A DNA stretch of 64,000 nucleotides, from positions 124,001 to 188,000 of the forward strand of contig JBCDMB010000002.1 in assembly GCA_038744685.1 (NCBI GenBank), given 5' to 3'. The position numbers and the translations under genes were made by a program. A model generated the notes under the pieces. The model searched no databases. It was not told where the DNA came from and saw only the letters and a program-made list of their open reading frames with translations. Positions within the stretch are counted from its first letter, which is position 1, and each line of letters begins with the position of its first letter. Source of the stretch: Verrucomicrobiota bacterium. GTDB taxonomy: Bacteria; Verrucomicrobiota; Verrucomicrobiia; Opitutales; Puniceicoccaceae. Positions 3,172 through 47,149 of this stretch are shown here, piece after piece.

Positions 3172-3218
3172 GATTCGGTTGTGGAGAAAAAACAGAAACT
3201 GCTCGACTGCTGGTCCTA

Positions 3219-4712: not shown

Positions 4713-4731
4713 TTCTTTCTCAGGGTTCGCT

Positions 4732-6483: not shown

Positions 6484-6571
6484 GGAGTGAGTAACAAAAT
6501 CGCGCCAATTGACTGGCAGCCATGCACCTCACGGCAAAAGATGCATGAGAACTGTTGCCGTAGGGTTTTGA

Positions 6572-6585
6572 CTAAACGATTAATC
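6572..6585. promoter_or_regulatory. Operator-like motif, site 2 (divergent promoter)
   Basis: CTAAACGATTAATC lies between the divergent sulfatase genes starting at 6483 (-) and 6664 (+). The same AAACGATTAATC string recurs at site 3 upstream of the Verru_Chthon-A-like gene, and its reverse complement core is at site 8. Confidence 0.5.
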
Positions 6586-6663
6586 TTGCAGGTAGACTGG
6601 AATAAATAGAGATTTCAAGCGTCTTTTTATTCCCTAGTTGCTGCAACTAAATTCCCCTAATTT

Positions 6664-8532: not shown

Positions 8533-8547
8533 AACGCGGATTCCGGG

Positions 8548-10137: not shown

Positions 10138-10218
10138 AACTGGTGCTTTTGTTACAATGATCTGAACGAAGCTACCGCCCCACTTTTTCGACCCTGCCGC
10201 TCTCCCTTTTCCTGTTTC

Positions 10219-11703: not shown

Positions 11704-11721
11704 CCCCGTAAAAGTATCGAA

Positions 11722-22916: not shown

Positions 22917-23504
22917 GATAGAACACGGGTACGTTTCTGAAGGGATTATGAGAAAACGATTAATCAATAGTAATTGGGGATGCACTTTACAAGGCAAAAC
23001 CTAACTATTTCTCTTCCGTATGCAAGGTTTCACGTCCAGTCTTTCCCGCAATTTTCTAACTACTTTTACAAAATTTTCTGTAGCCTGAAATGAACTTTTC
23101 TTGATGCGACACGGTGCCAAAACTGGAAAACCTCTGGCCACCTCAAAAATCAATCCCCTAGGAAGACCCCATTTTTCTTGAGCAGTAGTGGCAGGCACCT
23201 TTTCCAAGAAAGGGATTGGCGATTCAAAGCGAAGATTCATTGGAAAAATCGAGCAAAATGAAGGTGGTGTTGATAGGTCAGAAAACGATCTCATTCACTA
23301 CTCAATTTTATTGAAAAAAAATCCAACCGCACCTCTTCTTGCCATACCCAGATTCGTCCTTGCTTAGTAGACAGGGAAGGCACCAAAGTCCCAAATCTAC
23401 CGCTCGTTCCCACTGGGATCCGTGCACTTTGGAGACCCTTTGCCGATGGAACAAGTTTTCAAAACACCGCGTGCTCTATTCCTCGACGCGAGACGTAGGG
23501 CTTT
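22917..23504. other. 588-base intergenic region with one operator-like site
   Basis: It separates the Verru_Chthon-A-like gene from the isomerase-like gene and holds site 3 close to the start at 22916. A 97-codon minus-strand open frame (23001-23294) has no signal peptide, no recognisable motif and no convincing ribosome site, so I do not call it. The rest shows nothing I can name. Confidence 0.5.
22952..22965 (-). promoter_or_regulatory. Operator-like motif, site 3
   Basis: GAAAACGATTAATC lies 36-49 bases upstream of the Verru_Chthon-A-like start. It shares AAACGATTAATC exactly with site 2 in the divergent sulfatase promoter. Confidence 0.5.
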
Positions 23505-24395
23505 CTACTGATTACCGGCCTCCAAAAGGGCCTTCATCGCCTGAACACCCTCCACCGGGCCGAGGTTCTTCCCTTCGTATTCGATGGCAACGATACCGGT
23601 AAATCCGGCTTTGCGGACAATTTCCATCAATCGGGGATAATCAAAGTCTTTCTGTGTCCCATCCGGCTTGAAATCGTGGCCTTTCGCCGAAACGACCACC
23701 GTGTAAGGCATCATGTCCTCGGTTCCCTGATAAAAATCGGTTCCCTTCATTTTCCCAAAATCCGGCATGAGTCGGCAGTTCGGTCGATCGACCGTCTCCA
23801 CCAAGGTGGCAAGGTAGGAGCCCAGGGGCGTTGATCGAGGCGTGGGTTCAATTGCGATTGTTACCCCTTTCGGCAGGGCATAATCTGCGAGGGCACCCAA
23901 TGCGACAGCCGCCCGGCGGATAGACTCCTCGTCCGGAGCGCTGTTATCCACCTTAACGAAAACCCTGACGTACTCCGATCCAAGCGCTTCGGCCATGTCG
24001 ACATAGGACTTGTATTTGAGACCATTCCTCTCAAGTGCCTTATCGGCCGAAGGAGTCGCATTGACGATTCCTGCCATCACCAGAAAAATCTCACTTCCAG
24101 CGGCCTCCGCCCTGCTCCTCAATTCCGGAATGAAATTGGGGTCGTTTTTCCATCCGTCGGGAAACCCGCCATCCCAAACATCAATTTTTGTGATTCCGAA
24201 CTTCTCTTTCGCAAAATCAGGGTAGTCAAAGGCATGAAGCTCACCGGATTGGAAGAGCTGGCGCAGCGAATACATCGACAGACCAATTTCGTAGTGAGGA
24301 TGGATCTCGTCTGCCCCAACCCTTGTAAAACCGAAAACTAGAAGCGCGGTGAAGGGGAGCCAGAGCAATCGGCCGGCACGTAGTGTAGAATGCAT
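23505..24395 (-). CDS. Secreted sugar isomerase/epimerase-like protein (AP endonuclease 2 family TIM barrel)
   Basis: 296 residues. Unusually for the family it has a Sec signal peptide (to about residue 29, ending GADE). The mature protein has the barrel features EIGLSMYSLRQLF, TKIDVWDGGF, VRVFVKVDN, VTIAIEPTP, LMPDFGKM and GIVAIEYEGKN; the acidic residues in these strands are the likely metal ligands. Family members interconvert or epimerise sugars and inositols. It follows the Tat oxidoreductase at 24478 by 82 bases, so an exported oxidoreductase-plus-isomerase pair on the same sugar is plausible but unproven. Confidence 0.85.
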   Translation of the reverse strand: MHSTLRAGRLLWLPFTALLVFGFTRVGADEIHPHYEIGLSMYSLRQLFQSGELHAFDYPDFAKEKFGITKIDVWDGGFPDGWKNDPNFIPELRSRAEAAGSEIFLVMAGIVNATPSADKALERNGLKYKSYVDMAEALGSEYVRVFVKVDNSAPDEESIRRAAVALGALADYALPKGVTIAIEPTPRSTPLGSYLATLVETVDRPNCRLMPDFGKMKGTDFYQGTEDMMPYTVVVSAKGHDFKPDGTQKDFDYPRLMEIVRKAGFTGIVAIEYEGKNLGPVEGVQAMKALLEAGNQ

Positions 24396-24477
24396 AATTT
24401 GGGAATTGGGTTTCAGAAAACCGAAGTTAAATCAGCTGCCCAGCAGAGGCGATCAGAGCCGGTTCCGTGGTTCAACC

Positions 24478-25830
24478 TCAACCAGCAAAAAACTCTGGGC
24501 GATACTCATATTGGCTTTTCAGCAATGAATTCGCCTGAGCGCTGTTCGAAAACTGAAGCCTTTCCGAATCGAACTCCAGCGGACCTTGAACCGCCAACGA
24601 GATCGCTCCGATCAGCGCGGTGCCGGTGAAATCAGCCGCGTAGTCAACGATGTTTCCATTTGGCTGCCTTCCTGCCTTGATACCATCCACCCATTCCATG
24701 AAGTGGGTGCCGTCGACTCGATCCAGTGTTTTTGCCGGCATTGCTTTGTCCTTGCGGAGTTGCCGGAAATACTCGTCGGGAAAAATGCGGCCGCGCTTCG
24801 CATACATGTCCGCGAGAATTGACCCTTTTGAACCGACAATGACAGAGCCGCTTGGCATTCCTCTTTTGTTCCTTTCAGGGTCTGCCTGGATCGCAGAATT
24901 GGGGACAAACGGGACATCGAGAGGCCGTCGGCTGCCGTCCATCCAGGTCATACGCACGGGACCACGCCCGTTGGCCGCCGGAAACTCGAAGTAAATCGTA
25001 GACTCAGTCGGAAAAGCTACTTCCGTCGTTCCGACGGAATCCGAAACCACTCTGGACGGGAATCCCAACTTGAGCGGTGTGTAGGACACGTCCATCGCAT
25101 GACACGCAATGTCGCCAATGGCACCGCTACCATAATCCCAAAATCCCCGCCAGTTGAAGGGAGCAATCTCCTCACTGTAGGACCGCTCCGGGGCAACGCC
25201 CAACCAAAGGTTCCAGTCGATTGAACTCCGAGAAGGCTGCGCCTGTGGCCAGGAACTCATTCCCTGCGGCCAAATCGGTCGGTTCGTCCAGTGGTAGACT
25301 TCCTCCACATCCCCAATCAGTCCGGCGTCAATCCACTCTTCAATGTCACGAAGGCCGCTATTGGCATGCCCTTGGTTACCCATTTGAGTGATCACCCCAG
25401 ACTGCCTTGCAGCCTCCTTCAACAGCATAGCTTCTTCAAACGTGCGTACAAGAGGCTTCTCACAAAGGACGTGTTTCCCGTTGGCCATCGCCCAAAGAGC
25501 AATCGGATAGTGCATGTGGTCGGGTACCGCTATCGAAACCGCGTCGAACTGATCCCCCATCTTGTCAAACATCACTCGGAAGTCTGAAAACCGGGGAACG
25601 TTTGGATACTGGTTGAAAGCTTTTGCGGCCCGGACTTCATCCACATCGCAAAAAGCGACAAACTGCTCGGACGAGAGGCCGTCAACGTGCTTCGCACCAC
25701 GTCCTCCGACGCCGATCATTGCGAGGCGGAGTTTCTGGCCGCCGAGGTTCTCGGCACGGATGATGTTAGGAATGAAGAGACTCGAGGCACAAACGGCACT
25801 CGAAGCTTTGAGGAATTTTCTGCGATTCAT
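24478..25830 (-). CDS. Tat-exported Gfo/Idh/MocA family oxidoreductase (2)
   Basis: 450 residues from MNRRKFLKASSA, a textbook Tat signal; this start is preferred over the ORF start 63 bases upstream, which would bury site 4. The NAD-binding fold shows IGVGGRGAKHVDGL (~40-53) and CDVDE; the family Lys motif is LCEKPLVRTFEEA. QMGNQGHANSGLR and WRGFWDYGSGAIGDIACHAMD mark the secreted subgroup shared with the gene at 30975 (QGHNMEGMRL, GLGGLGDIGCHTLE). It is closer to that gene than to the one at 16874. Confidence 0.92.
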   Translation of the reverse strand: MNRRKFLKASSAVCASSLFIPNIIRAENLGGQKLRLAMIGVGGRGAKHVDGLSSEQFVAFCDVDEVRAAKAFNQYPNVPRFSDFRVMFDKMGDQFDAVSIAVPDHMHYPIALWAMANGKHVLCEKPLVRTFEEAMLLKEAARQSGVITQMGNQGHANSGLRDIEEWIDAGLIGDVEEVYHWTNRPIWPQGMSSWPQAQPSRSSIDWNLWLGVAPERSYSEEIAPFNWRGFWDYGSGAIGDIACHAMDVSYTPLKLGFPSRVVSDSVGTTEVAFPTESTIYFEFPAANGRGPVRMTWMDGSRRPLDVPFVPNSAIQADPERNKRGMPSGSVIVGSKGSILADMYAKRGRIFPDEYFRQLRKDKAMPAKTLDRVDGTHFMEWVDGIKAGRQPNGNIVDYAADFTGTALIGAISLAVQGPLEFDSERLQFSNSAQANSLLKSQYEYRPEFFAG

Positions 25831-25860
25831 GGGCTTTTGGGTAAGGATAAGATAGCTTGG

Positions 25861-25873
25861 GGAAACGTTTATT
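25861..25873 (-). promoter_or_regulatory. Operator-like motif, site 4
   Basis: GGAAACGTTTATT lies 30 bases upstream of the Tat oxidoreductase start at 25830, in the 135-base gap after the beta-helix gene. Spacing to the start resembles that of site 1. Confidence 0.5.
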
Positions 25874-25965
25874 CCCCGATCCTTTATCTGCAACTACAAA
25901 AATACTTCATCCCTAGCTTTGAGCAGATCCCGCGGACCCATTTCCTCACCAATCAAGTCGCTACC

Positions 25966-29518: not shown

Positions 29519-30955
29519 CTAATTCGAGTTCGGGTTCATCGCAGCCATCTCCCTCTGGAGCAACTGTTTCAACGTTTTCGCTTTCTCCGGATACTGCTCA
29601 ATCACGTTCGTTTGCTCACCAAGATCCTCCTCCAAGTTGAAAAGCTGCTCCACTTGAGGGTTTTCAGCACCCTTCTGCTTCCGGATCCACGTTCCATGAA
29701 GCCTTCCTTTCCGGTATTTCCAACCGTCCTTCGAAATCCCCTGGCCTCCGCCGTAAATGAAGAATTCCCGCGAGGGCGCCTCCGATTCATTCCCCAAAAG
29801 AACAGGCCGGATATCAAGACCATCGATGACGCGATCCGTCGGCAGCTCGGCACCAGCAAGCGCTGCTACGGTCGGCAAAATATCGAGGGTGCTACCGTCG
29901 AAATCGGACACGACACCTGCTGGAATTCGACCAGGCCACCAGAAAATGCTGGGGACACGCTGCCCACCTTCGTAAGTGGTGCCCTTGCCGTCGCGCAAAG
30001 ACCCGGCCGAGCCACCCGTATCCCCTTGAGCCAGCCATGGACCGTTGTCCGAAGTAAAAACAACCAGGGTATTTTGATCGAGTCCACGCTCCCTCAGTGC
30101 CTCCAACACTTGTCCGACCGACCAATCAATTTCTTCAATCACATCGCCATAGAGACCTCGCTCCGTTCGCTCCTCGAAGGTGTCAGACACGAAAAGCGGG
30201 ACGTGCGGCATCGAATGGGCGAGATAGAGGAAGAAGGGTCGGTCTGCATTTTCATCGATAAAGTCGATGGCACGCTCGGTGAACCGCCGCGTGATCTGCG
30301 TCTGGTCCACCGGCCACTCGATCACCTCGGTATTTTCCATCAGAGGAACCTTGTCTTTGTATTTTCTATACAACTCACGGCCTTCGTCCTTTCCCACTTC
30401 CTGCGGAAGATAGGCATGATAGTCTTCGAGCGTCATGCCGCCAAGGAGCTTTGCGTTCGGCGCGAGCGGCATGCCACCGTCATGGGCCATGTCATTGCTG
30501 TAGGGAATTCCGAAATACGAATCAAACCCCTGCTCTGTAGGAAGGAACTCGGGCAAATGCCCTAAATGCCATTTTCCAACGATAGAGGTTGCGTAGCCCT
30601 GTTCCTTCAGGATTTCCGCGATCGTGACCTCACTCTGAGGCAGTCCGTCGCGACTCCACGGAAAGTAGACTCCCCCCATTTTTCCCCATCGGTAGGGATA
30701 GCGCCCGGTCAAAAGCCCCATCCGCGACATGGTGCAGCTCGGAAAAACTACGTGGAAATTTGTAAATCGAATGCCCTCACTTGCCATCCGATCAATCTCC
30801 GGAGTCGAAAACCCCTCAGCCCCGTAAACGCCTAGATCGCCATAACCCTGATCATCGGTAAAAATGACAATCACGTTCGGCTTCTCTGCACGGGTTCCCA
30901 ACGTCCCGCAAAGCACAACGCCGCACAAAAGAAGCAGTCGGAGAACGATAGCCAT
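29519..30955 (-). CDS. Secreted S1-like sulfatase with CxMxR core
   Basis: 478 residues, arylsulfatase A/GALNS-like in layout. Signal peptide to about residue 23, TDDQGYGDLG at the metal pair (34-35), then FPSCTMSRMGLLTGRYPYR. Cys74 and Arg78 are present but the third core position is Met76 instead of Pro/Ala; the bases (TGC ACC ATG TCG CGG on the coding strand) leave no doubt. Other catalytic regions (GKWHLGH, TSDNGPWL, EGGQRVPSIFWWPG) are normal. It lies 19 bases downstream of the Tat oxidoreductase at 30975, with site 5 in between. Fold assignment is secure; whether the Cys is matured is open. Confidence 0.92.
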   Translation of the reverse strand: MAIVLRLLLLCGVVLCGTLGTRAEKPNVIVIFTDDQGYGDLGVYGAEGFSTPEIDRMASEGIRFTNFHVVFPSCTMSRMGLLTGRYPYRWGKMGGVYFPWSRDGLPQSEVTIAEILKEQGYATSIVGKWHLGHLPEFLPTEQGFDSYFGIPYSNDMAHDGGMPLAPNAKLLGGMTLEDYHAYLPQEVGKDEGRELYRKYKDKVPLMENTEVIEWPVDQTQITRRFTERAIDFIDENADRPFFLYLAHSMPHVPLFVSDTFEERTERGLYGDVIEEIDWSVGQVLEALRERGLDQNTLVVFTSDNGPWLAQGDTGGSAGSLRDGKGTTYEGGQRVPSIFWWPGRIPAGVVSDFDGSTLDILPTVAALAGAELPTDRVIDGLDIRPVLLGNESEAPSREFFIYGGGQGISKDGWKYRKGRLHGTWIRKQKGAENPQVEQLFNLEEDLGEQTNVIEQYPEKAKTLKQLLQREMAAMNPNSN

Positions 30956-30963
30956 AATTGAAG

Positions 30964-30975
30964 TAAACGTTTTAT
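30964..30975 (-). promoter_or_regulatory. Operator-like motif, site 5
   Basis: TAAACGTTTTAT sits in the 19-base gap between the oxidoreductase stop and the sulfatase start at 30955. Its position inside an otherwise tight gene pair suggests either an internal promoter or a chance match. Confidence 0.4.
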
Positions 30976-32336
30976 CAGCTACCGGAACGGATCAATCCTT
31001 CACCGTATTCCCAACCCGATCGGACAGGCTCTCGAATATAGAAATCGAGGGATGGATCCTTAAAACGCATTTGATCCGGGAGATACTCCACATTCTTCCC
31101 TGACCTAACCGCAATGGTCCCAAGGATCACGGTCTCGGTCAGCGGAGCTGCGTAATCAAAGTTGGAGCCACAGCCCGGGATCTCTCCCTTTATTGCCATG
31201 ATGATCTCTTTGACCGGACCTCCAACAGCCCGCGGGAGGGTCTTGGGTGGAAGCTGACGTCGAAGCTCCATCCAGTCGTTCGCCAGCCGTGGACTGCTCG
31301 GCCGCATACCAGGTGAGAAGAGGATATTCTTGTCACCGATCATAAGACACCCACCTTCCAACGGCACTCTGGACTTTTCGATCTCCTCTGGGAATCGAGG
31401 TAAACGACCGCCCTCATACCAATAAATTGTAACCGGCGGCTGGCTACCCTGCGCAGGAAATTCATACACATAGGTTGCGCTCGCAGCTTTCGATTTTTTG
31501 CCATCAAACTCGTTCCTGTAGTCCATCTCGGGAGCCATGTAGACCAAGTTCGGGTAGCCCAATTGCATTGCGTACGTGGGAATTTCCAACGTGTGACAGC
31601 CAATGTCTCCCAAACCACCGAGACCGTACTGCCACCACCAACGCCAGCCCTTTGGAACGAAAGTTTTGTTGTAGGCAGCCTCGGGCACCGGTCCTTGCCA
31701 CAACTCCCAATCTAAAGTCGGCGGAACCGGTTCTGGAGGAGGAGTCGTGCCCTCGTTCTTCACGTTTACCGAGGTTCGGTTTGTCCAAGCATGGACTTCC
31801 CTGACCTTACCGACAAGGCCCGCCTCATACCACTCCCGGATCAAACGCATCCCTTCCATATTGTGACCCTGATTCCCCATTACAGTTTGAACTCCAAACT
31901 TGTCCGCAGCGGCCTGAAGCGTTCGTGCCTCCCAAATGTTATGGGTCAAAGGTTTTTGGGTGTGCACGGCAATTCCACGCTCCATTGCGGCATAAGTGGC
32001 AACAAAGTGGGTATGATCCGGAGTGCTGACGATAACCAAATCCAACTCGTCACCGTGAGCGTCCAGCATGCGGCGAAAATCGACGTAGCGCTGTGCATCG
32101 GGAAAAGTATTGAAGCCAATGGACCCAGCAACCTGATCGACATCGGCGATTGCTATAACGTTTTCTCTACGACAGTCGCCAAATGCTGTTTTTGCAATTC
32201 CACCACCTCCAACGAGACCAATGTTCAATTTGCTGTTTGCACCGCGCCCTGATTGTCCAATGCTGAAACAGGGTAAGGCGAAACTGGCAGCAGCGACTGC
32301 TGTCGTCTTCAAGTAGTTGCGTCGTGAGATTTTCAT
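30975..32336 (-). CDS. Tat-exported Gfo/Idh/MocA family oxidoreductase (3)
   Basis: 453 residues from MKISRRNYLKTTAVAAASF, a Tat-type leader; the upstream ATG at 32402 lies in the divergent promoter and is rejected. IGLVGGGGIAKTAFG is the nucleotide-binding loop, TPDHTHFVATYAAM and QKPLTHNIWEARTL cover the catalytic Lys region, and GLGGLGDIGCHTLEIP is shared with the gene at 24478. It is first of the minus-strand run and is transcribed away from the GH38 gene across a 97-base AT-rich promoter region. A glycan-derived sugar is the likely substrate, by context. Confidence 0.92.
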   Translation of the reverse strand: MKISRRNYLKTTAVAAASFALPCFSIGQSGRGANSKLNIGLVGGGGIAKTAFGDCRRENVIAIADVDQVAGSIGFNTFPDAQRYVDFRRMLDAHGDELDLVIVSTPDHTHFVATYAAMERGIAVHTQKPLTHNIWEARTLQAAADKFGVQTVMGNQGHNMEGMRLIREWYEAGLVGKVREVHAWTNRTSVNVKNEGTTPPPEPVPPTLDWELWQGPVPEAAYNKTFVPKGWRWWWQYGLGGLGDIGCHTLEIPTYAMQLGYPNLVYMAPEMDYRNEFDGKKSKAASATYVYEFPAQGSQPPVTIYWYEGGRLPRFPEEIEKSRVPLEGGCLMIGDKNILFSPGMRPSSPRLANDWMELRRQLPPKTLPRAVGGPVKEIIMAIKGEIPGCGSNFDYAAPLTETVILGTIAVRSGKNVEYLPDQMRFKDPSLDFYIREPVRSGWEYGEGLIRSGS

Positions 32337-32433
32337 GGGGCTTTGTTTTCTTTGCTGACCTAGCAAATTTTTATTTTGAATTTTTCGCGTTGCATCTGTC
32401 AAACACCTACTCTCCTACAGATAGTCCACAGAG

Positions 32434-35247
32434 ATGAATATTCCTGAAAAGAAAACTGCTATTGTTGTTGCTCACACTCATTGGGACAGAGAGTGGCGCT
32501 ACCCGATTTGGAAAAACCGTTCCCTGCTCATCGAGTTTATGGACTGGTTGCTCGAAATTCTGGAGAATGACCCTGACTACAGTGGGTTCCTTCTCGATGG
32601 CCAAACGGTCTGTATCGACGACTACCTTGAAATCAAGCCGGAGAACCGGGACCGCATTGCCGCTCAGGTCAAAGCGGGACGACTGGCAATCGGCCCCTGG
32701 TATACCCTACCCGACCTCTTCCCGATCGCAGGAGAATGTCTCGTGCGCAATCTGAACAAGGGGATCCGTTTCGCCGAAGAGTTTGGCGGCTACAACCCAA
32801 TCGCCTACCATACCTTTGGGTGGGGGCAGACGGCGCAGTTCCCGCAAATCTATCAAGACCTTGGTATCAACTATGCCGTAGCGGCAAAGAAGGTTTCCGA
32901 GGAACGCGCTCCCTTTTGCGAGTTCATGTGGACAGCCCCTGACGGATCTCAGCTCCTCACTTCGCGACTTGGACACTTTACCAGACAAAACGTTTATTTT
33001 TATCTCCATTTCCCAGTCCGCTTGAACAACATTTACGATGATAACGAGTTCGCGTGGAAATGGGGTGAAACCGGTGTCGCCTACCACCGTGCCGATGCGG
33101 AGCTTGCTCGAAACGACTATTTCCGGGTCGATCACGAGGATGGTTATTTCAAGGAGAACGTAAAAGATGGAGCCCAGCGCATTTGGGACAATATGGAGAA
33201 GACTCTGGTTGGGGATTACCGGATACTCATGTGCGGCTGCGATTTCTCGACTCCCAACCCGTATCTCCCGAGGATGATTGCCGACTGCAACGAGGCCATT
33301 CCCGACATCGACTTCAAGATGGGCTCCCTGGAGGAATACTTCTCGGGACTAGAAGAACGGATCGACCGGAGCCAGGTGCCGGTGGTCCATGGAGAGCTGC
33401 GCGATGGCGAGCCCTGCTGGGCTTCCGCCAACGCCTTGTCGACACGAATCCACATCAAACAGCTCAACAAGGCTGCGGAGAACACGATGATCCGCCGCAC
33501 CGAACCTCTGGCCGCTTCTCTCTTCAAGCTCGGCTGGCAGTATCCCGATGGATTCTTCAAGCGCGGCTGGAATTACCTTCTCAAATCCCACCCCCACGAT
33601 TCGATCAACGGCGTGACGCAGGATAAAACGGTGGAAGACAACCTCTACCGGATCAACCAAGCCATCGAGATCAGCGAGTCCATCTACGAAGACTGTATCG
33701 CCGGCTTACTCAATCGACTCGATCTCTCCGCGTTCGGTCAGGAGGACCAACTCCTTCTCCTGCACAATCCGCAACCGCGTCCGGTCAACGAAGTCATCAA
33801 AATCGTCGTCGATACTCCTCAGGAAAAGAATGTCTGGGCCATCGGTGTGGCCGAAGAGAACGGAAATCCCCTGGTTGTTCAGCCGATCTCCCGCGACGAA
33901 CACAAGCAGCCGGTCCACGATATCGAAGCACGCCCCTGGCCTCTTAACGTAGACCGCCACTTTGTTTACCTCGAAACCGGCGAAATCCCGGCGGGCGGCT
34001 ACAAGGTTGTCAAAGTGACCCACAAGTCGACGTTCTGGCGAGAGGAAGAGTGGTGGCCACCCATGCGCAAGAGCGTTCAAAACCCAATCGCCAAGGACTC
34101 CCTCTCCCTCGAGAACGAATTCCTGAGGGTTGCGGTGAACCCCGACGGAACCTTCGATCTGACCGACAAACAGAACGGACGGACAATTCAAAACGTGCAC
34201 TCCTTCGAAGACGAAGGGGACACGGGCGATTACTGGGCGTTTTACGTCCCTTTCAATAACCAGGCCATCAGCAGCCGCGGCTTTAACTCGCGCATCTGGC
34301 TGGAGGACAACGGATCACTGAGTGCGACGATCGCCGTTGAGACGGTTATGCAAGTTCCGGCCAATGCTGAGTACGAGAACGTAAAGATTCAGGGCTATGG
34401 GAAAAGGAGCGAAGAACTCGTCGATCTGAAAATCGTCTCTCATCTGACGCTGGCAAAGGGTTCGAAGCACCTCCGAATCAAGACCTCGATCAACAATACG
34501 GCGAAAGACCATCGCCTTCGCGTCTTGATTCCAACCGACGTGCAGACCGATTTTTCCGATGCAGCCGGGCACTTTACCGTCGACCGTCGCGAGATCGTTC
34601 ACGAGAGGGAAGAAAACGGCGAGTATTATCCGGAGATGGCTCTGCGACCCATGGCCGAGTTCTGCTCCGCAAGCGACGGCAAATGCGGGCTTTCCGTTCT
34701 CAACAACTGCTTGACCGAGTTCCAACTTCTCGAGGACGAGCGCCGCACCCTGGCGATCACTCTGCTTCGCGCTACACGGAACCGTATTTGCACCGAGTCC
34801 CGCATTTCCTCCGAGTTTCCCGAAAAACTCGGAAGCCAAATGCTGCAGACCATCGACTACGAATACGCGATCTACCCGCACAAAGGAGACTGGGTCGAAG
34901 GAAAGGTCTATGCAGAGGCAGATAAACTGAACGCCAAGGTGGTACCCGTGCAGATCTCGATGAACCGCGGGGGAGATCTCCCAAGCAGCGCATCGCACTA
35001 CTCCATCGACAACAAAGCGATTGTGATTACCGCCTTCAAAAAAGCCGAAGACCGTGATGCGCTGATTTTGCGTCTTTGTAACCCTACTGACAAAGAACAG
35101 ACCACCACGATTCGGACGGATCTCCCTGTTGAACATGCCTGGCTAAACAATCTCAATGAAGTCAGGGGTGAGGAACTCCCATTCGAGAATGGGTGTATAA
35201 ACCTTTCCCTCTCCAAAGGAAAAATCGTTACCGTCGAACTTCAGTAA
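32434..35247 (+). CDS. GH38 alpha-mannosidase-like protein with unusual nucleophile position
   Basis: 937 residues without a signal peptide, so probably cytoplasmic. AHTHWDREW at the N-terminus supplies the GH38 zinc ligands His16 and Asp18, and SHPHDSING (His388, Asp389) is the third cluster. The C-terminal beta-sandwich (LLHNPQPR... to VELQ) and the overall length fit bacterial GH38. The segment that normally carries the catalytic Asp, usually D-x-FG-x, reads AYHTFGWGQTAQFP, with His126 at that place. Because this Asp is also a zinc ligand in characterised GH38 enzymes, His could keep the metal while changing chemistry. Activity on mannosides is therefore inferred from the family only. Confidence 0.88.
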   Translation: MNIPEKKTAIVVAHTHWDREWRYPIWKNRSLLIEFMDWLLEILENDPDYSGFLLDGQTVCIDDYLEIKPENRDRIAAQVKAGRLAIGPWYTLPDLFPIAGECLVRNLNKGIRFAEEFGGYNPIAYHTFGWGQTAQFPQIYQDLGINYAVAAKKVSEERAPFCEFMWTAPDGSQLLTSRLGHFTRQNVYFYLHFPVRLNNIYDDNEFAWKWGETGVAYHRADAELARNDYFRVDHEDGYFKENVKDGAQRIWDNMEKTLVGDYRILMCGCDFSTPNPYLPRMIADCNEAIPDIDFKMGSLEEYFSGLEERIDRSQVPVVHGELRDGEPCWASANALSTRIHIKQLNKAAENTMIRRTEPLAASLFKLGWQYPDGFFKRGWNYLLKSHPHDSINGVTQDKTVEDNLYRINQAIEISESIYEDCIAGLLNRLDLSAFGQEDQLLLLHNPQPRPVNEVIKIVVDTPQEKNVWAIGVAEENGNPLVVQPISRDEHKQPVHDIEARPWPLNVDRHFVYLETGEIPAGGYKVVKVTHKSTFWREEEWWPPMRKSVQNPIAKDSLSLENEFLRVAVNPDGTFDLTDKQNGRTIQNVHSFEDEGDTGDYWAFYVPFNNQAISSRGFNSRIWLEDNGSLSATIAVETVMQVPANAEYENVKIQGYGKRSEELVDLKIVSHLTLAKGSKHLRIKTSINNTAKDHRLRVLIPTDVQTDFSDAAGHFTVDRREIVHEREENGEYYPEMALRPMAEFCSASDGKCGLSVLNNCLTEFQLLEDERRTLAITLLRATRNRICTESRISSEFPEKLGSQMLQTIDYEYAIYPHKGDWVEGKVYAEADKLNAKVVPVQISMNRGGDLPSSASHYSIDNKAIVITAFKKAEDRDALILRLCNPTDKEQTTTIRTDLPVEHAWLNNLNEVRGEELPFENGCINLSLSKGKIVTVELQ

Positions 35248-35541: not shown

Positions 35542-36600
35542 TCACCTCAGGTGAGTCAGGACATCCCTCGAAAAATAGGGTTCTTCGTTTTGCCAGAAGA
35601 TGTACTGCACACCGAGGAACTCCTTGGCGAAGGCGTGAAGCATCGGAACTCCAGTTGATTCCGTGGCCTCACCGATCGGAATTTCCTCACCCGGGGCGAC
35701 GTCCGCTCCTGTCATCCCGATGTAATTCCCGCGTTGAACAGCGATACCCAGAGGAACCGAAAAAGTATTTTCGTGCATCAAAGCCAGCGTATGGTTCAGC
35801 TGCGATCTACGCCCCACCATCAAGTCCGGACCTCCGAGACCGACTCCAACCTCTTCGCCATACTCATAAACCGAGCGAAGGTATCCCCGGTCATTCCAAG
35901 GCAGCCACTCGCCGGGCATGAAGTTGGCATACTGGATCGCAACCGATTTCGGGAATGCCCGCTTGAGAGCGAGCATGTTTGCCCGAATCCCTTCGGCATA
36001 GGCTTCCGGAGTAAAGGATGGATCAGTCTCTTCACTCAAGCCCTCGGCCGCAGTTTCCGGTAGGTTGATCCCTTCGATCTTGCCGTCGAATTGCTCTCCG
36101 AGCGCCTTCAATAACTGACCAAACCGCTCTCGAACATTAGCGTTCCAGCGTTTTGCAATCCACCCCGAAGGCAGACCGTCCGGATTCCTCTTCGCAAACT
36201 CCCCAACATCAAATTCCGAAGTCCGCAAGTAGGGTGGAACCACGTGCCGATCGGGAACAAAACTGGTATCCTGAAGCTGGATGAAGAGCTTTTTCCCTTT
36301 GCTCTCCAAGTAATCCAGGTCCTCTTGGATTGCGGAGAAGTCATAGATCCCACGGGATGGTTCCAGCAGGGTCCAAGGGTAGAGCACCTGTGCCCCGGCA
36401 ACGCGGTCATTGTTCAGGAAAGCATGGTTCCGGATTTCCTTCCGCGGAAGAAAAACAAAGTGCGTGACGCTGTCATCGGGAAGCGGCGAAGGAGAATCGA
36501 TGAACTGCCGGTAGACGGAAGCGTAGCGATCCGCGTCAACCGGCTTTGCAACCGCAATCGAACCGAAAATCGTAAAAACCAAAAACCCGAGAACCTTCAC
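35542..36600 (-). CDS. Secreted TIM-barrel glycosidase-like protein
   Basis: 352 residues with signal peptide to about residue 18 (SIAVAKPVD). The mature protein has barrel-type strands and helices: AGAQVLYPWTLLEPSRGIYDFSAI, KKLFIQLQDTSF, IEGINLPETAAEG, VAIQYANFMPGEW and a final VQYIFWQNEEPYF. Glu in NLPET and Glu in WQNEEP sit where retaining barrel glycosidases (GH5/GH42-like) keep acid/base and nucleophile. I cannot assign a CAZy family. It is convergent with the GH38 gene and has its own upstream region. Confidence 0.7.
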   Translation of the reverse strand: MKVLGFLVFTIFGSIAVAKPVDADRYASVYRQFIDSPSPLPDDSVTHFVFLPRKEIRNHAFLNNDRVAGAQVLYPWTLLEPSRGIYDFSAIQEDLDYLESKGKKLFIQLQDTSFVPDRHVVPPYLRTSEFDVGEFAKRNPDGLPSGWIAKRWNANVRERFGQLLKALGEQFDGKIEGINLPETAAEGLSEETDPSFTPEAYAEGIRANMLALKRAFPKSVAIQYANFMPGEWLPWNDRGYLRSVYEYGEEVGVGLGGPDLMVGRRSQLNHTLALMHENTFSVPLGIAVQRGNYIGMTGADVAPGEEIPIGEATESTGVPMLHAFAKEFLGVQYIFWQNEEPYFSRDVLTHLR

Positions 36601-37090
36601 TCACAGATCGATGAGATCATTCAACGGTCTCGGCAACTCCGAAGTATTCCACTTCCTCAAAATCCAAATTGTTCCCAAGGATCTACCAAAGGTCTCGTTC
36701 GGGATCGAGACAGCCATCGTTACCACCGGGAGACAAGAAAGGAGTTTGATGACACTCGGGAACCAGCAGTTGGAACAGACTTTCAGCTCAAGACGAAAGA
36801 TGGAGGAGTTGGAATCGATCAGGATCTCCTGGGTAATTTCGGTAAAACGATTTTTCTCGTCAGTGCACCGTAAGATGGTCACGCTATGAATCTGTTCTCC
36901 GCTCCCCCCCCTGAAGCCCAGGTCAGTGCTAAAGAGGTTTCTTTGCTTTATTAAACCGCGCCTCATACAAAGCATAATGTAAATATCGAAATCGAAATCG
37001 GTATCGCTATCGAAAGCACTCGAGACCCGATATCGATCCCGATATCGAATCCCGAGTATGTTCAATTTAAGCAGCGAAGTAATATCCTCA
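36601..37090. other. 490-base divergent intergenic region with an ATCG repeat
   Basis: It lies between the TIM-barrel gene (-) and the GH67/GH20-like gene (+). Open frames on both strands of the left half show no recognisable protein. The right end holds the ATCG-rich repeat described separately. No operator-like motif was seen here. Confidence 0.5.
36985..37050. repeat. ATCG-unit low-complexity inverted repeat
   Basis: Units of ATATCG, ATCGAAATCG, GATATCGATC and similar run for 66 bases just upstream of the gene at 37091. The left half (ATCGAAATCGGTATCGCTATCG) and the right half (GATATCGATCCCGATATCG) are imperfect reverse complements, so the stretch can fold into a long hairpin around the CTCGAG at 37021. 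It could affect translation of the downstream gene if it lies in the leader. Confidence 0.6.
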
Positions 37091-39175
37091 ATGAATAACT
37101 TTCCCCGAGGTTTACTGAAACCGTGTATCCTATTTCTCCCCCTGGCTGGCCTGGTCAGTCTTCCGGTATCGGCTGGGGTAGAAATCATCCTCGCCCTCGA
37201 CGAGGACTCTAAACTCGAGCAATACGGTGCCGATCGGTTGGAATCCGTTTTACTGCAAGCGGGCACACAGCTGGTTCGCCTGGCTAACGATGACCTCGAA
37301 AACGGAGCGGATATTCGAACAAAGATCATCTCCGAATCCAACTCTGAGGGCCTCCAGCCGGAAGGCTTCCGCCTTCAGCGTGAAGAGGACATCCTGACTA
37401 TTAGTGCCGTCGATCCAAAGGGAATTCTGTATGGTCTCATGGAACTCGCAGAACAAATCGAATTTCGAGGAAGCCTCGATACCGTAGAACCGGTCACCCA
37501 AAACCCGCGTTTCCCGTTCCGCGCGATCAAGTTCAATCTCCCCTGGTCCTCCTATCGTCAATTTCCAGCGCTTCAGGCGAATCTGGAAGCCTGTCGCGAT
37601 CTCGAGATGTGGGAGGACTTTCTTGATATGATGGTCGAGAACCGGTTCAACGCCCTCACTCTCTGGAACATCCATCCATGGCCGGATCTCGTTCGAAGCG
37701 AATCGTTTCCGCTGGCCAATTCCCACTCCGAGGAGGAATTGGCGGAGTGGAAGAAATTTTGGAATGCACTCTTTGGGATGGCCAAGAATCGGGGAATCGA
37801 TACCTACCTACTCAATTGGAATGCCTTTGTTTCCGAGGGTTTCAAAGAGCACTACGGCGATGGAAACGTCGATACCGGGCACCACTTTATCGAGGGGATT
37901 GATAGTCCCCTCATCCGCCAATACAACCGGGAATCGATCACTCAGGTCATCAACGAGTATCCCGATCTCACCGGCCTTGGCGTAACCCTCGGCGAGGGCA
38001 TGGAAGGCTGGTCCAGCGAACTTCAAATCGATTGGGTTGAGGACGTCTTTTTCGAAGGCATTCGGGCCGCGGATCGCCCGATCAAATTCATCTATCGAGC
38101 CGCCCTCAAGGGGGACCACACCCTCAACCGACAGGCAATCGACCGATCCGGGCTCGATACACCGGAGAGCCCCATCATCGTCGAGCTGAAATTCAACTGG
38201 TCGCATGGCCACTCCACTCCGACCCTGATCAAGGCACATGGTGGTGGGACCGGCGAGGAGTATTGGACCAATCCAGCCCCGAGCCACCACAAGATGGCGT
38301 GGATGGTGCGCAATGAGGACTTCTTCCGTCTGCGTTGGGGCGAACCGGACTTCATCCGCGAGCACATCCGCTTAAACGGGCAGGATTTCGTTGCAGGCTA
38401 TTTCATCGGTTCCGAATGCTACATTCCGGCTGCTGATATTTTCACCGTCTCCGATCAAGAACACGTCGATTGGAAATGGGCTTTCGAGCGACAATGGCTC
38501 TTCTATATGCTTTGGGGGCGCCTCCTCTACAAGCCGGATCTCGGTAACGAAGTCTTCGCCGCCGCCTACGATGAGCGCTTCCCCGGCGGACACGGAGAGG
38601 AGATGGTCGAAGCATTTCGGCTCGCCTCGCAAACCGCCCAGCGGATCGCCGGATTCTTCAGCTGGACATGGGACTATACCTTCTACACCGAGGGTTTTCT
38701 TTCGCGCCGCGGTTTCCTCACACTACGCCAGATGATGCGGACCGACACGACCGAGCCTCGTTTCGTCTCGATTAAGGAGTATCGACAAGGTAACCGCGAC
38801 TTCGGAGACCGCATCACCCCACCTGAACTCGCCGACCTTCTCGAGCAGGATTGCACGCGAGCGCTCGAGATTGTGAACGCCATCCAAAATCCGCCTCCCT
38901 CGCTGCAGTTTGAAATTGCAGACGTCCGTGCTTGGAGCCAGCTCGGCCTTTATTTTGCCGATAAGCTCCGTGCCGCCGTAAGCCTCAATCAGGGCAACAA
39001 GGAGCTAGCGGTTCAACAATTGGAAGCCGCGAAGGACCACTGGCTCAAACTGGTCGAAATCACCGAAGCCACCATCCAACCCAGTTCACTTGGTCACATT
39101 GGCGGCGGTGACTTCCACTGGAAAAACTACGTTAAGGATGTCGAGAGAGACATCCGGTGGGCCCGGTCACAATGA
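37091..39175 (+). CDS. Secreted GH67/GH20-like glycoside hydrolase
   Basis: 694 residues from MNNFPRGLLKP; an ATG 33 bases upstream is possible but adds residues ahead of the signal peptide. Signal to about residue 28 (VSAGVE). Residues ~30-140 resemble the N-terminal alpha/beta domain shared by GH20 and GH67/GH115-type enzymes (EGFRLQREEDILTISAVDPKGI-like layout, YGLMELAEQI). A barrel follows with FRAIKFNLPWSSYR, NALTLWNIHPWPDL and GLGVTLGEGMEGW, where a Glu could be catalytic. Alpha-glucuronidase-like activity is a guess. Its last ~11 codons are part of a duplicated segment whose second copy is near 40554. Confidence 0.75.
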   Translation: MNNFPRGLLKPCILFLPLAGLVSLPVSAGVEIILALDEDSKLEQYGADRLESVLLQAGTQLVRLANDDLENGADIRTKIISESNSEGLQPEGFRLQREEDILTISAVDPKGILYGLMELAEQIEFRGSLDTVEPVTQNPRFPFRAIKFNLPWSSYRQFPALQANLEACRDLEMWEDFLDMMVENRFNALTLWNIHPWPDLVRSESFPLANSHSEEELAEWKKFWNALFGMAKNRGIDTYLLNWNAFVSEGFKEHYGDGNVDTGHHFIEGIDSPLIRQYNRESITQVINEYPDLTGLGVTLGEGMEGWSSELQIDWVEDVFFEGIRAADRPIKFIYRAALKGDHTLNRQAIDRSGLDTPESPIIVELKFNWSHGHSTPTLIKAHGGGTGEEYWTNPAPSHHKMAWMVRNEDFFRLRWGEPDFIREHIRLNGQDFVAGYFIGSECYIPAADIFTVSDQEHVDWKWAFERQWLFYMLWGRLLYKPDLGNEVFAAAYDERFPGGHGEEMVEAFRLASQTAQRIAGFFSWTWDYTFYTEGFLSRRGFLTLRQMMRTDTTEPRFVSIKEYRQGNRDFGDRITPPELADLLEQDCTRALEIVNAIQNPPPSLQFEIADVRAWSQLGLYFADKLRAAVSLNQGNKELAVQQLEAAKDHWLKLVEITEATIQPSSLGHIGGGDFHWKNYVKDVERDIRWARSQ

Positions 39176-41464: not shown

Positions 41465-42772
41465 TCACTCCCCTGGCGAGTGTAGAGTGCCCGAATTGTT
41501 TCTTAGACTCGAGAGCAAATCAGGAGCCCCAAGGATCTCCCTTATTCGGACGTTTCGAATCGGGCAGTATCCTGAGAAAGCAAAATGACCTTCTTGCGGC
41601 AGCTCGTTCAGCGGGACTCGAAAGCGGTTGCGGCTACCATCCGGGTTCCGCCCCGCTATGGTCCATTGGTCCAAGTCCATGACAATCAGCTCCTGATCGT
41701 TGATCGATGCGCGAATGCGTCCGTTCTCGGCCCGCAAAGAAACCGTGTTCCATTCGCCGCGAAGAACTTTCGGAGTCTCCGCAGGCGTAGCGCATCCGCG
41801 GATTGAACCCACCGAATTGGGATGCGCGTGCGAATTCGGCTCCCAGTCGCCAAAGCGAAACTGAAAACCATCTGCTTTTCGCTTCGAAGGATCCTGTTTC
41901 CAGAACTCAACGTGCCCGTCCTCGCCTTCTGAGGCGAAGAACTCAAATTCCAGCTCAAAGTCCTGAACTCTGTTTTTTGAGACGATGGGAAACGGACGGC
42001 CAAGGAAGCGGAGCACATCCTCCTCAACAATCCAGGCTCTTTCGTCGAGCACCCACTGGATGGTATCGGTGCCGTCGAAAAGAACCTGCCACCCGTCGAC
42101 CTCGCGGATTTCCGGCAGGTCACCTGCCTGAAACGTCGTGCCCAGCGGCTTGATTCTTATGTCCCGAAACCATACTGGGTCATTGTGGTCCTGTAAGCCG
42201 ATGAAACCTGAGCGCGGCTTGTCCTTTCCGGCGATTTTAAATTTGTTCTTCGTTCCGTCCGGGTTTTTCCCAACTTCGGTCCACTCATCCAGATTCACCT
42301 CCAAAACCTCTTCGCCATTCAGGACGATTTGAACCATCGGTCCGTCGCAGACGATTCGGTAGGAGTTCCACTCGCCCGCAGGATTGACAGCCATAGTTGA
42401 TTCCGGACCCGCCATGTCGTAGATCGCGCCACAAACGTGAGTCAGGTTTTTCGGCTCAGTTCCATGACTGTCGAGCACCTGCACCTCCAAACCCCTTTGG
42501 ACGTAATCCTTTCGATCATCCACTCGAATCATCACCCCGCTGTTGGTTCCGGGCGCAAGTTTGAAGTCCAACTCCAACTCAAAATCGTCGAACTCCCGAA
42601 GTGTCCAAACCGTCCCACCTCCTGGCCTCGCTGCAATTGCTCCGTCCGAATCTACCCGCCACTCCTCTGGATCAAAAACGAAACCAGACCACGGATTTTC
42701 TGCTTCCGGTAAACCAGCTAAAATGAACCGGGCCATGCTCAGGAAGACTGATGCGCATACTGTTCTTTTCAC
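41465..42772 (-). CDS. Secreted protein with two DUF1080 (3-keto-disaccharide hydrolase-like) domains
   Basis: 435 residues with signal peptide to about residue 19. Two concanavalin-like DUF1080 units follow. The first (~25-205) shows FDDFELELDFKLAPGTNSGVMIR, CGAIYDM and GFIGLQDHNDPVWFRDIRIKPL. The second (~225-415) shows WQVLFDGTD, DFELEFEFFASEGEDGHVEF and GHFAFSGYCPIRNVRI. Family members hydrolyse 3-keto-glycosides or bind glycans. In this locus a 3-keto substrate could come from the exported Gfo/Idh/MocA oxidoreductases; that link is inference. Divergent from the sulfatase operon at 42889 with site 7 between them. Confidence 0.88.
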   Translation of the reverse strand: MKRTVCASVFLSMARFILAGLPEAENPWSGFVFDPEEWRVDSDGAIAARPGGGTVWTLREFDDFELELDFKLAPGTNSGVMIRVDDRKDYVQRGLEVQVLDSHGTEPKNLTHVCGAIYDMAGPESTMAVNPAGEWNSYRIVCDGPMVQIVLNGEEVLEVNLDEWTEVGKNPDGTKNKFKIAGKDKPRSGFIGLQDHNDPVWFRDIRIKPLGTTFQAGDLPEIREVDGWQVLFDGTDTIQWVLDERAWIVEEDVLRFLGRPFPIVSKNRVQDFELEFEFFASEGEDGHVEFWKQDPSKRKADGFQFRFGDWEPNSHAHPNSVGSIRGCATPAETPKVLRGEWNTVSLRAENGRIRASINDQELIVMDLDQWTIAGRNPDGSRNRFRVPLNELPQEGHFAFSGYCPIRNVRIREILGAPDLLSSLRNNSGTLHSPGE

Positions 42773-42888: not shown

Positions 42889-45255
42889 ATGCACCCTTGT
42901 AGCCTACCCCTTGCAGGCCTGCTCTTCATTTGTTTGACCGCATTTGCCCAGGCGCAAACGCCGGTTGGAAATATCATCTGGCTCTATCACGATGACAACG
43001 GATCTTATGTCACTGTAGACGGTGACTTATCCGATCAACTTACAGCAAGAGATACCGCCCGCGTAGGTCCGACGGAGAGATTCCTCGTGGAGGATGTTGG
43101 CGATGGCAACTTTCGCCTACGGTCGACTGCAAACGAGAAATTTGTGCGGGTCAACACGAGCAACGTCGACAAACTCATTGCCGATTCCACAAATCCCAGT
43201 GATCCGCTTACCCATTTCTCCTGGACCACAGTACCAGGCGGTAAGGTCCGAATCACGAGTGTGGGGGATGACGACTCAGCGAGGTACCTTAGCCCCTCCG
43301 GTAGTGCCCAGATTGTCCGATCAAATCGATCCACCACCGGAAGCGAAAGCGAATTCACTTGGGGAATTTACACCGAGAGACCGCCCAACATAGTCATGAT
43401 TTACATCGACGACTGGGCGTGGAACGGCTCCTCGGTGGCAATGGATGAACGAATGGCAAATTCTCATTTCCCCAACATCATCGAAATGCCTAACCTCGAT
43501 GCGATGGCTGCGAACGGTATGGTTTTTCGCAATGCTTACGGTTCACCCCAATGCACCCCAGCCCGCGCTGCCATTCAGACCGGGCAGTCCAACGCACGCA
43601 ACGGGATGACCGTTTTCATGGGCAACTCCGGTTACTTTGATCGAGACTCCACTACTGAGGGTCGGCAGTACTACCACTTCCCAGTCATCGCCAACGGCGC
43701 AGAAAGCACCCTGCGACCGGAAGCAACCACCATCCCCGAGGCCCTTGCTCCTTTTGGCTACGTATCCGCCCACATTGGCAAGTGGCATCTCCGCGGGAGT
43801 CCTGGCGACGAGGGCTACATCCTACATGACGGACCTACTACGAACGACGAGGGAAACAACTTCACCAACTCTGAAGGCCTCGAAGGACTGGAGGATCCAA
43901 AACTGATGACCTACATTACCGATACCGGGAAGGCATTCATGGAAGCCCAGGTCGACGCGGAAAAACCCTTTTATCTTCAACTATCCCACTACGCAGTGCA
44001 TGGCGGTAGCGAATGCACTCCCGAATCCAGAGCCCGCTACCAGAATATTCCCGAGGTCGTCGCATTTAATGGTGGCAAGACGAACCCGGACAACATCAAC
44101 CGCAAAAACGATCCAGCAGTCTGGCTTGGCATGGTCTACGAGCTGGATCAGAAAATCGGGGAAATCCGTGACAAAGTCGATGAGCTCGGTATCGCCGACA
44201 ACACCTACATCATTGTGACTGGAGACAACGGCTACCGCCACAGTTTCTTCGATGAGCTCACCGGACTGCCGCAACCTCTTCACTCCCGCAAATGGTGGGC
44301 TTGGCAAGGGGGTATCCGCGTTCCCCAAGTGATTGAGGGTCCCGACATTCCAAAGAATTCGTTTTTTACGCCAAACACCGCCAACTACGATTTCCTTCCG
44401 ACCTTTGTGGAATGGGCGGGCGGCGACCCGGTATTCATTCCCGACCTCGACGGCGTGAGTCTAGCGGGAGTTCTTGCCGGGGAAACTCCAACCGAGGAGT
44501 TCATCAACCGTTCGCTGTATTTCCACTATCCTCACTACCGCAACACCATGCCTCACTCCGCTATCGTGAAAGGTGGCCACAAGGCGATTTACTTTTATGA
44601 AACTCCGGTGCGTTTCCCCGCTTGGGACCCAATCATGTTGTTCGACCTGAACAACGATGCCGGAGAGTATCACAACATCTATGCTGAAAACTCCGATCTG
44701 GGAGACGCTCTCTACAATGATCTGATGAGTTACCTTGTAGCCGTCGAAGCGCGGATTCCTGAAGTCCCCAATCCGAATTATGATGCGGATGTCTACGAAA
44801 GCGACGACGCCTTTGGCGGGCGTTCTTCACAAGGTCCATTCGTCGGAACTAGAAGTACTAGCGGTGATCAACTTGGACCCACTCCGTTCTTCAATTATTG
44901 GATGGAGTCTTGGGGAGTGGATCTAGGGTCCGAGGAGGATGACTATGACGGAGACGGTGCTTCGAACTGGATGGAGTACACGATGGCCGGAAATCCAACG
45001 GATATCAGAGACGTCGGTCTTCAACCCGTTTTTTCCACAGTCGACGGTGCTCTCAACTTTTCCTTTTTCGAACGGAACGACGACTCAGCAATCACCTACG
45101 TTTTGGAGTCGTCGACCACCCTCTTGCCAGACAGTTGGGCACCGGTCAGTGGACCGTTTGATTCTGTTTATGGAATCGGAGAAATTCTGCAACGCATCTA
45201 CACCGTTCCGATCGATGACTCACCACAAGTCTTCTACCGTCTGAACGTTCAATGA
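42889..45255 (+). CDS. Large secreted S1 sulfatase with N-terminal beta-trefoil-like module
   Basis: 788 residues. Signal peptide to about residue 22. Residues ~25-162 (VDGDLSDQLTARDTA..., FRLRSTANEKFVRVNT, KVRITSVGDDDSARYL) look like a fascin/ricin-type beta-trefoil, likely sugar binding. The sulfatase part starts RPPNIVMIYIDD (Asp174-175), core CTPAR with Cys222, and resembles the sulfatase at 3219 to its end. A C-terminal segment (~660-788) has the calcium-type DYDGDGASNWMEY and a FYRLNVQ finish, like the tail of the giant protein at 11722. Its stop overlaps the next start by four bases (ATGA). Confidence 0.93.
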   Translation: MHPCSLPLAGLLFICLTAFAQAQTPVGNIIWLYHDDNGSYVTVDGDLSDQLTARDTARVGPTERFLVEDVGDGNFRLRSTANEKFVRVNTSNVDKLIADSTNPSDPLTHFSWTTVPGGKVRITSVGDDDSARYLSPSGSAQIVRSNRSTTGSESEFTWGIYTERPPNIVMIYIDDWAWNGSSVAMDERMANSHFPNIIEMPNLDAMAANGMVFRNAYGSPQCTPARAAIQTGQSNARNGMTVFMGNSGYFDRDSTTEGRQYYHFPVIANGAESTLRPEATTIPEALAPFGYVSAHIGKWHLRGSPGDEGYILHDGPTTNDEGNNFTNSEGLEGLEDPKLMTYITDTGKAFMEAQVDAEKPFYLQLSHYAVHGGSECTPESRARYQNIPEVVAFNGGKTNPDNINRKNDPAVWLGMVYELDQKIGEIRDKVDELGIADNTYIIVTGDNGYRHSFFDELTGLPQPLHSRKWWAWQGGIRVPQVIEGPDIPKNSFFTPNTANYDFLPTFVEWAGGDPVFIPDLDGVSLAGVLAGETPTEEFINRSLYFHYPHYRNTMPHSAIVKGGHKAIYFYETPVRFPAWDPIMLFDLNNDAGEYHNIYAENSDLGDALYNDLMSYLVAVEARIPEVPNPNYDADVYESDDAFGGRSSQGPFVGTRSTSGDQLGPTPFFNYWMESWGVDLGSEEDDYDGDGASNWMEYTMAGNPTDIRDVGLQPVFSTVDGALNFSFFERNDDSAITYVLESSTTLLPDSWAPVSGPFDSVYGIGEILQRIYTVPIDDSPQVFYRLNVQ

Positions 45256-46781: not shown

Positions 46782-46804
46782 GCTCTCCAAACAGAAACCT
46801 CGAA

Positions 46805-47149
46805 ATGAACATGCACCCGAAGCATCGTCTTGCAGAGGCTTTTCTTCTGCTCGCCGCCTCTTCTTTCCCTCTCTCGGCAGCTGAAACGCCCATCGACCAC
46901 CCAGCGGTCGACAATCTCGAATTCCTTTGGTGGCAATACCGGGAGGCGGGAGACTTCCCCGGAATTATTTCGATTGAAGGCGTCTCTGAACAAGTGGCAA
47001 CGGTAAGTCTTCCACTCGAAGCCGGCGGTACCCAAATTCATCTCATTTTGGAAGTGCGCGACCTCAATCCGATCGCTTCGCTTTACGACTATCGGCGGAT
47101 TGTTTTCGATACAGAGGACGGCGAGCCGAAGAAAGATCCAGTTTTATGA
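46805..47149 (+). CDS. Small secreted protein: lone Sde182 C-terminal-like domain
   Basis: 114 residues from the ATG at 46805 (a TTG at 46778 is less likely). Signal peptide to about residue 20 (PLSAAE). The mature part, DHPAVDNLEFLWWQYREAGDFPG through IHLILEVRD and LYDYRRIVF, matches the C-terminal beta-sandwich that normally ends DUF1593/Sde182-type cellulose-binding or nucleoside-hydrolase-like proteins. The catalytic-like front domain is absent, yet a signal peptide is present, so this looks like a purposeful stand-alone binding module. Its stop overlaps the next sulfatase start (ATGA). Confidence 0.75.
   Translation: MNMHPKHRLAEAFLLLAASSFPLSAAETPIDHPAVDNLEFLWWQYREAGDFPGIISIEGVSEQVATVSLPLEAGGTQIHLILEVRDLNPIASLYDYRRIVFDTEDGEPKKDPVL

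Follow-up and report, generated by a model that had tools for sequence, protein, structure and literature searches.

GH38-fold proteins without the catalytic aspartate in many bacterial phyla: candidate zinc-dependent inverting glycoside phosphorylases with a HAD partner

The 64,000-nucleotide stretch of DNA analysed in this work (the window) carries an intact open reading frame that starts with ATG at 32434, stops at 35247, and encodes a protein of 937 residues. The GH38 N, C, and C2 domains of this protein all exceed their Pfam cut-offs, and its GH38 middle domain falls just under (28.1 against a cut-off of 31.1). The AlphaFold2 model of the protein, computed from an alignment of 65 relatives, has a mean pLDDT of 93.3 and a pTM of 0.93. 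The model exhibits the full-length GH38 fold when compared with Enterococcus faecalis 3lvt (Z 43.4) and Streptococcus pyogenes 2wyh (Z 40.1, rmsd 2.0 Å, 849 residues), and Foldseek gave TM-scores of 0.84-0.85 to 5kbp and 2wyh. The protein is thus a GH38 member by both sequence and fold. It is the sole GH38 N-domain match in the host genome, and its N-terminus looks cytoplasmic, with no signal peptide visible by sequence inspection. The features of the locus are shown in Table 1.

The HAD-superfamily gene listed in Table 1 lies 3 kb from the GH38-fold gene, beyond one sulfatase gene and one Gfo/Idh/MocA gene. The window also contains at least eight sulfatase genes, a 1551-residue CBM6/PKD multidomain protein, and a PhoD-like phosphatase gene (1561-16377, 29519-30955, and 42889-48924), and these sulfatase-rich parts look like a region for the degradation of sulfated polysaccharides. 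At 16874-18163, 23505-25893, 30975-32402, and 41465-42772 there are genes for three Gfo/Idh/MocA oxidoreductases, one xylose-isomerase-like protein, and one 3-keto-disaccharide hydrolase (PF06439), and together these genes are reminiscent of 3-keto-glycoside catabolism. The protein of 705 residues at 37058-39175 has a weak match to the NCBIfam alpha-D-galacturonidase model (133 bits, cut-off 1300) and a GH20 domain-2 match, and is possibly a distant relative of the alpha-D-galacturonidase family. Two long open reading frames, at 35542-36600 (352 residues) and 19011-22997 (1328 residues), have no Pfam matches.

Table 1. Coordinates in the window of the GH38-fold gene, its active-site positions, and the HAD gene.
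Feature	Position	Strand	Details and evidence
GH38-fold protein without catalytic nucleophile	32434..35247	+	937 aa; Pfam GH38 domains, AlphaFold2 model, fold matches
Zinc-ligand motif His16-Trp-Asp18	32479..32487	+	Aligned with SpGH38 H13/D15; kept in all full-length relatives
Arg22	32497..32499	+	Basic in 88% of the Asp-less branch vs 16% of Asp-bearing relatives
Former nucleophile motif Tyr125-His126-Thr127-Phe128-Gly129-Trp130-Gly131-Gln132	32806..32829	+	Ungapped alignment
Lys152, position of SpGH38 Arg149	32887..32889	+	Basic in 93/93 Asp-less rows
Arg184-x-Asn186, branch signature	32983..32991	+	Arg in 93/93 Asp-less vs 0/25 Asp-bearing rows
His218	33085..33087	+	Basic (H/R/K) in 92/93 Asp-less vs 0/25 Asp-bearing rows
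Asp270, predicted general acid/base, position of SpGH38 Asp232	33241..33243	+	Alignment
His388 (zinc ligand)-Asp389 (sugar contact)	33595..33600	+	Aligned with SpGH38 H351/D352
HAD-superfamily phosphatase/phosphomutase, 331 aa	28498..29493	-	Pfam HAD_2, alignment, model, linkage to the branch

The zinc ligands of the S. pyogenes alpha-mannosidase SpGH38 are His13, Asp15, Asp125, and His351, where Asp125 also acts as the nucleophile, Asp232 is the acid/base, and Phe127 is conserved (PMC2815779). Arg149 is thought to hold Asp125 ionised, and Tyr192 hydrogen-bonds Asp125 (PMC2815779). In the ungapped alignment, Phe128 of the window protein (32815-32817) occupies the position of Asp125, Phe127 pairs with Trp130, and the glycine of DxFG pairs with Gly131. 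The motif G-Y-I-P-D-T-F-G-H of an Asp-bearing relative (L025) is thereby paired with A-Y-H-T-F-G-W-G-Q. Between Tyr125 and Pro137, both included, the loop is 13 residues long in every one of the 118 relatives compared (93 Asp-less and 25 Asp-bearing), so the alignment over the motif is free of gaps. The gap-free phmmer alignments to the solved structures 2wyh (S. pyogenes) and 3lvt (E. faecalis) exhibit a register identical to that of the family alignment, by which HTFGW is distinct from the D-x-F-G-x motif.

The initial annotation had described a full-length gene with the zinc ligands His16/Asp18 and the His388-Asp389 pair, and this description is borne out by the intact reading frame, the GH38 domains, the modelled fold, and the alignment with SpGH38. 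It had also placed His126 at the position of the nucleophile Asp. Asp is indeed missing from the nucleophile position, and the alignment places no other conserved Asp there; His126, however, is two residues out of register and the position itself is taken by Phe128. Most relatives have Thr, Asn, Ser, or Glu at residue 126, and just six of the 93 Asp-less rows have His. Being variable and out of register, His126 was ruled out as a substitute nucleophile or ligand. The further suggestion that a His keeps the zinc bound is not sustained, since the position holds Phe (or Cys, Thr, Ser, or Asn). As the alignment stands, the metal site must be left with three protein ligands: His16, Asp18, and His388.

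The relatives come from a search of 387 Verrucomicrobiota genomes; in addition, an alignment built from Asp-less members was used to scan species genomes of bacteria and archaea. Cultured species with homologues include Paenibacillus mangrovi (L047), Ruminiclostridium cellobioparum (L037), and Robinsoniella peoriensis (L075). Full-length relatives were found in Verrucomicrobiota, Kiritimatiellae, Planctomycetes, Clostridia, Paenibacillus, and Treponema, and also in Armatimonadetes, Hydrogenedentota, Ignavibacteria, Balneolaceae, KSB1, Calditrichota, and others. In the tree set, the nucleophile position of the 93 Asp-less rows holds Phe in 82, Cys in four, Thr in three, Ser in three, and Asn in one. 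In the tree, the Asp-less rows fall together with few changes. The free tree requires two changes, and a single Asp-less clade is not rejected (p-AU 0.27), with the root uncertain owing to the long outgroup. The loss of the nucleophile goes beyond chance, as it is common to every member of a multi-phylum branch. The gene belongs to a distinct branch of the GH38 fold, large and widespread among bacteria, that is without the catalytic Asp. This supports the earlier proposal of a GH38 branch with changed chemistry and a blocked retaining mechanism, and the branch spans far more than one gene. Among the non-subscription papers searched, none reports a GH38 phosphorylase, a GH38 protein without the nucleophile, or an alpha-mannoside phosphorylase; a 2022 review of glycoside phosphorylases counts 11 CAZy families without naming GH38 (PMC8950772).

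The remainder of the catalytic apparatus is kept. Compared with a retaining GH38 alpha-mannosidase, the protein has the His-x-Asp motif, the His-Asp motif, and the predicted general acid (H16, D18, H388, D389, and D270) and lacks the Asp that serves as nucleophile and zinc ligand, which is found in none of the 93 branch members. His16, Asp18, His388, and Asp389 are kept in all 93 Asp-less rows, and Asp270 in all but one. The branch also acquired its own residues. Position 184 carries its signature Arg, Asn186 and Gln132 occur in nearly all Asp-less rows, and the basic residue at position 218 is His in 75 rows, Arg in 12, and Lys in five. His218 lies inside an extra stretch, some 45 residues long (about 200-250), that is missing from most Asp-bearing relatives. 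Arg184-x-Asn186 lies in the loop that carries Tyr192 of SpGH38, with the exact pairing uncertain by one or two residues between alignments. Position 152 is basic in every row. Because position 152 stays basic and Arg184 sits in the Tyr192-bearing loop, the gained positive charge probably points at the vacated Asp site. By counts, Phe at residue 128 goes with His or Lys at 218 and small residues go with Arg, a pattern that comprises only two or three independent changes and is not significant.

No substitute carboxylate was found among branch-specific Asp and Glu positions (93 against 25 rows) other than Glu163 and the distant Glu764. Glu163 was rejected because SpGH38 and the E. faecalis enzyme carry it too, and Glu764 because it is far off in the sequence.

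The branch is linked to the HAD gene. HAD genes of two related subgroups, counted together, lie next to the branch gene, or near it, in 45 of 80 branch loci and in none of 20 Asp-bearing GH38 loci (8-kb flanks; Fisher p 1e-6, shared ancestry not corrected). Most of these HAD genes are immediately adjacent to and co-directional with the branch gene; in a close relative (L055), the HAD gene and the GH38-like gene are direct neighbours in divergent orientation. Among the 387 Verrucomicrobiota genomes, all 14 genomes with the HAD gene belong to the 20 branch genomes (p 2.5e-21, shared ancestry uncorrected), where branch genomes were scored by a single full-length match and the motif was verified in the loci examined. 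The six branch genomes that lack it are mostly of the Cys or Thr type. Among 291 Clostridia genomes, 11 of the 13 HAD genomes fall within the 13 branch genomes (p 2e-16, likewise uncorrected for shared ancestry), and the other two are partial matches. Where no HAD gene is adjacent, it is found elsewhere in the genome in 14 of 21 cases.

The HAD protein of the window keeps the four catalytic motifs (Asp88/Asp90, Thr201-Ser202, Lys252, and Glu280-Asp281), and its model (pLDDT 89) exhibits a HAD C1-cap fold. Fold comparison was rejected as a means of separating mutase from phosphatase, since CbbY, phosphoglycolate phosphatase, and beta-phosphoglucomutase are matched about equally. The protein scores 22.9 bits against the beta-phosphoglucomutase equivalog model, far from the cut-off of 189.4. 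Val132 aligns, against solved beta-phosphoglucomutase homologues, with the phosphate-binding Arg49, so phosphatase activity is no less likely than mutase activity.

Other genes recur near the branch at lower frequency and are absent from the 20 Asp-bearing loci. These are GH94 phosphorylase (9/100 branch loci), PfkB sugar kinase (about 11/100), PGM/PMM (6/100), and mannose-6-phosphate isomerase (5/100). Five ignavibacterial operons (L082, L083, L090, L098, and L104) combine a hydantoinase-like gene, PGM/PMM, a HAD gene with a large insertion, the Asp-less GH38, and GH94 phosphorylase. Three Clostridia loci have an Asp-less GH38-HAD pair and, next to it on the other strand, a large GH38 gene of the Asp-bearing kind (L089:898-4059, L105:3639-6803, and L107:3633-6791, all on the minus strand); this arrangement hints at a mannoside context.

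From the computed fold, Asp loss, kept catalytic residues, basic signature, and HAD linkage, we tentatively propose, at a little under an even chance, that the branch protein is an inverting glycoside phosphorylase with phosphate sited where the Asp carboxylate was. Retaining double displacement would have been given up. The zinc site and Asp270 would hold and protonate an alpha-linked mannose-like glycoside, and the vacated carboxylate site would be lined by Arg184, His/Arg/Lys218, Lys/Arg152, and often Arg22, plus Gln132 and Asn186. Inorganic phosphate at that site may then attack the anomeric carbon directly. Cleavage of an alpha-glycoside would release a beta-hexose 1-phosphate, which the co-inherited HAD protein, of the beta-phosphoglucomutase/phosphatase class, would convert. 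Phosphate as the nucleophile, the inversion, mannose as the sugar, and the HAD reaction are what we infer. The wider reading, held a shade more tentatively, is that zinc-dependent inverting phosphorylases of alpha-glycosides, probably alpha-mannosides, make up a large bacterial branch within GH38, that this branch arose when a phosphate site took the place of the nucleophile Asp, and that a dedicated HAD protein acts with them on a beta-hexose 1-phosphate.

The branch alignment exhibits a kept general acid and no enzymic base or nucleophile. A lost carboxylate, a kept acid, and new basic residues are expected of an inverting phosphorylase derived from a retaining hydrolase. Arg184, basic 218, and Lys152 are conserved, and their placement in the pocket comes from alignment. 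Two precedents are available: the phosphate site of GH112 sits where the retaining GH42 has its nucleophile (PMC8106489), and three basic residues tell phosphorylases from hydrolases in GH130 (PMC4599007). HAD co-inheritance and the cytoplasmic-looking start of the protein fit a sugar-phosphate product. The GH94 phosphorylase, PGM/PMM, and mannose-6-phosphate isomerase genes that recur near the branch also speak for a phosphorylase. Against a phosphorylase, a HAD protein acting as phosphatase would waste the phosphorolytic product, the nearby PfkB kinases fit the release of free sugar, the six Verrucomicrobiota branch genomes mentioned above lack the HAD gene, and Phe, being bulkier than Asp, must turn aside for phosphate to enter.

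Two rivals stand out, namely a glycosidase that acts on a charged substrate and a hydrolase that works by inversion. The former, which we consider unlikely yet the strongest of the alternatives, is an active glycosidase whose basic cluster binds the phosphate, sulfate, or carboxylate of the sugar itself. Zinc-bound water or a substrate group would hydrolyse the bond without an enzymic nucleophile, and the HAD protein would remove phosphate before or after. The closest curated NCBIfam model, although matched far under its cut-off, is mannosylglycerate hydrolase, whose substrate is phosphorylated; the many sulfatases around the window gene and a possible phosphatase role of the HAD protein also agree with such an enzyme. 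However, Asp-bearing relatives of the mannosylglycerate hydrolase type lack the basic cluster, and the cluster arises together with nucleophile loss, which substrate recognition alone would not need. Sulfatases are near the branch gene in only 5/80 and 5/20 branch loci.

The inverting hydrolase, in which water is held by zinc or a distant base in place of a covalent nucleophile, is rather improbable. Zinc with three ligands, an open site, and the retained general acid would suit it. It requires a base, yet the branch gained no specific carboxylate near the site, and a basic cluster has the wrong charge for that role; in GH130 it is the hydrolases that have carboxylates and the phosphorylases that have basic residues (PMC4599007).

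A catalytically dead pseudoenzyme or sugar-binding protein is less likely again: the nucleophile is lost, but members from many phyla keep the metal ligands and the general acid and share a new invariant Arg, and the gene is inherited together with that of an enzyme. The least likely is elimination (3-keto-glycoside) chemistry in which zinc holds a sugar oxidised by Gfo/Idh/MocA oxidoreductases. The Gfo/Idh/MocA, xylose-isomerase-like, and PF06439 genes of the window would suit it, but it was rejected because Gfo/Idh/MocA genes occur at only 5/100 branch loci against 3/20 Asp-bearing loci, which makes the link local to the window.

GH38 is a well-studied glycosidase family. Because a multi-phylum branch has discarded the nucleophile and kept the zinc site and acid, automatic annotation of its genes as GH38 or alpha-mannosidase is wrong in mechanism. 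If the phosphorylase reading is true, it would be, to our knowledge, the first phosphorylase in the GH38 fold and would add to the examples of inverting phosphorylases built on the scaffold of a retaining hydrolase. It would also be a possible tool for the synthesis of alpha-mannosides from sugar phosphate.

Among known systems, the window protein is most similar in structure to the alpha-mannosidases SpGH38 (2wyh/2wyi) and E. faecalis GH38 (5kbp/3lvt), with the full-length fold (Z 39-43), about 26% identity, the same His/Asp/His zinc ligands, general acid, and His-Asp motif, and equal motif-loop length. It differs in having Phe128 for the nucleophile Asp125, in the gained Arg184, basic 218, and Gln132, in the extra segment around residues 200-250, and in the HAD gene neighbour. 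The nearest curated model is that of the mannosylglycerate hydrolase MngB (NCBIfam PRK09819, E 2e-122), but the score of 409.9 bits against a cut-off of 1138 places the window protein outside that equivalog family. The HAD protein shares the HAD core fold and the four catalytic motifs with beta-phosphoglucomutase, CbbY, and phosphoglycolate phosphatase (HAD type IA), and differs from them in its identity of about 20%, an N-terminal extension of about 80 residues, and Val at the Arg49 position. The proposed exchange of the nucleophile for phosphate with the proton donor kept resembles that of galacto-N-biose phosphorylase of GH112, a relative of GH42 (PMC8106489), although GH112 has an unrelated fold, acts on beta-galactosides, and has no zinc. 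The basic residues are similar to those of the GH130 mannoside phosphorylases, where they bind phosphate (PMC4599007); GH130, in contrast, has a different fold and converts beta-mannosides to alpha-mannose 1-phosphate.
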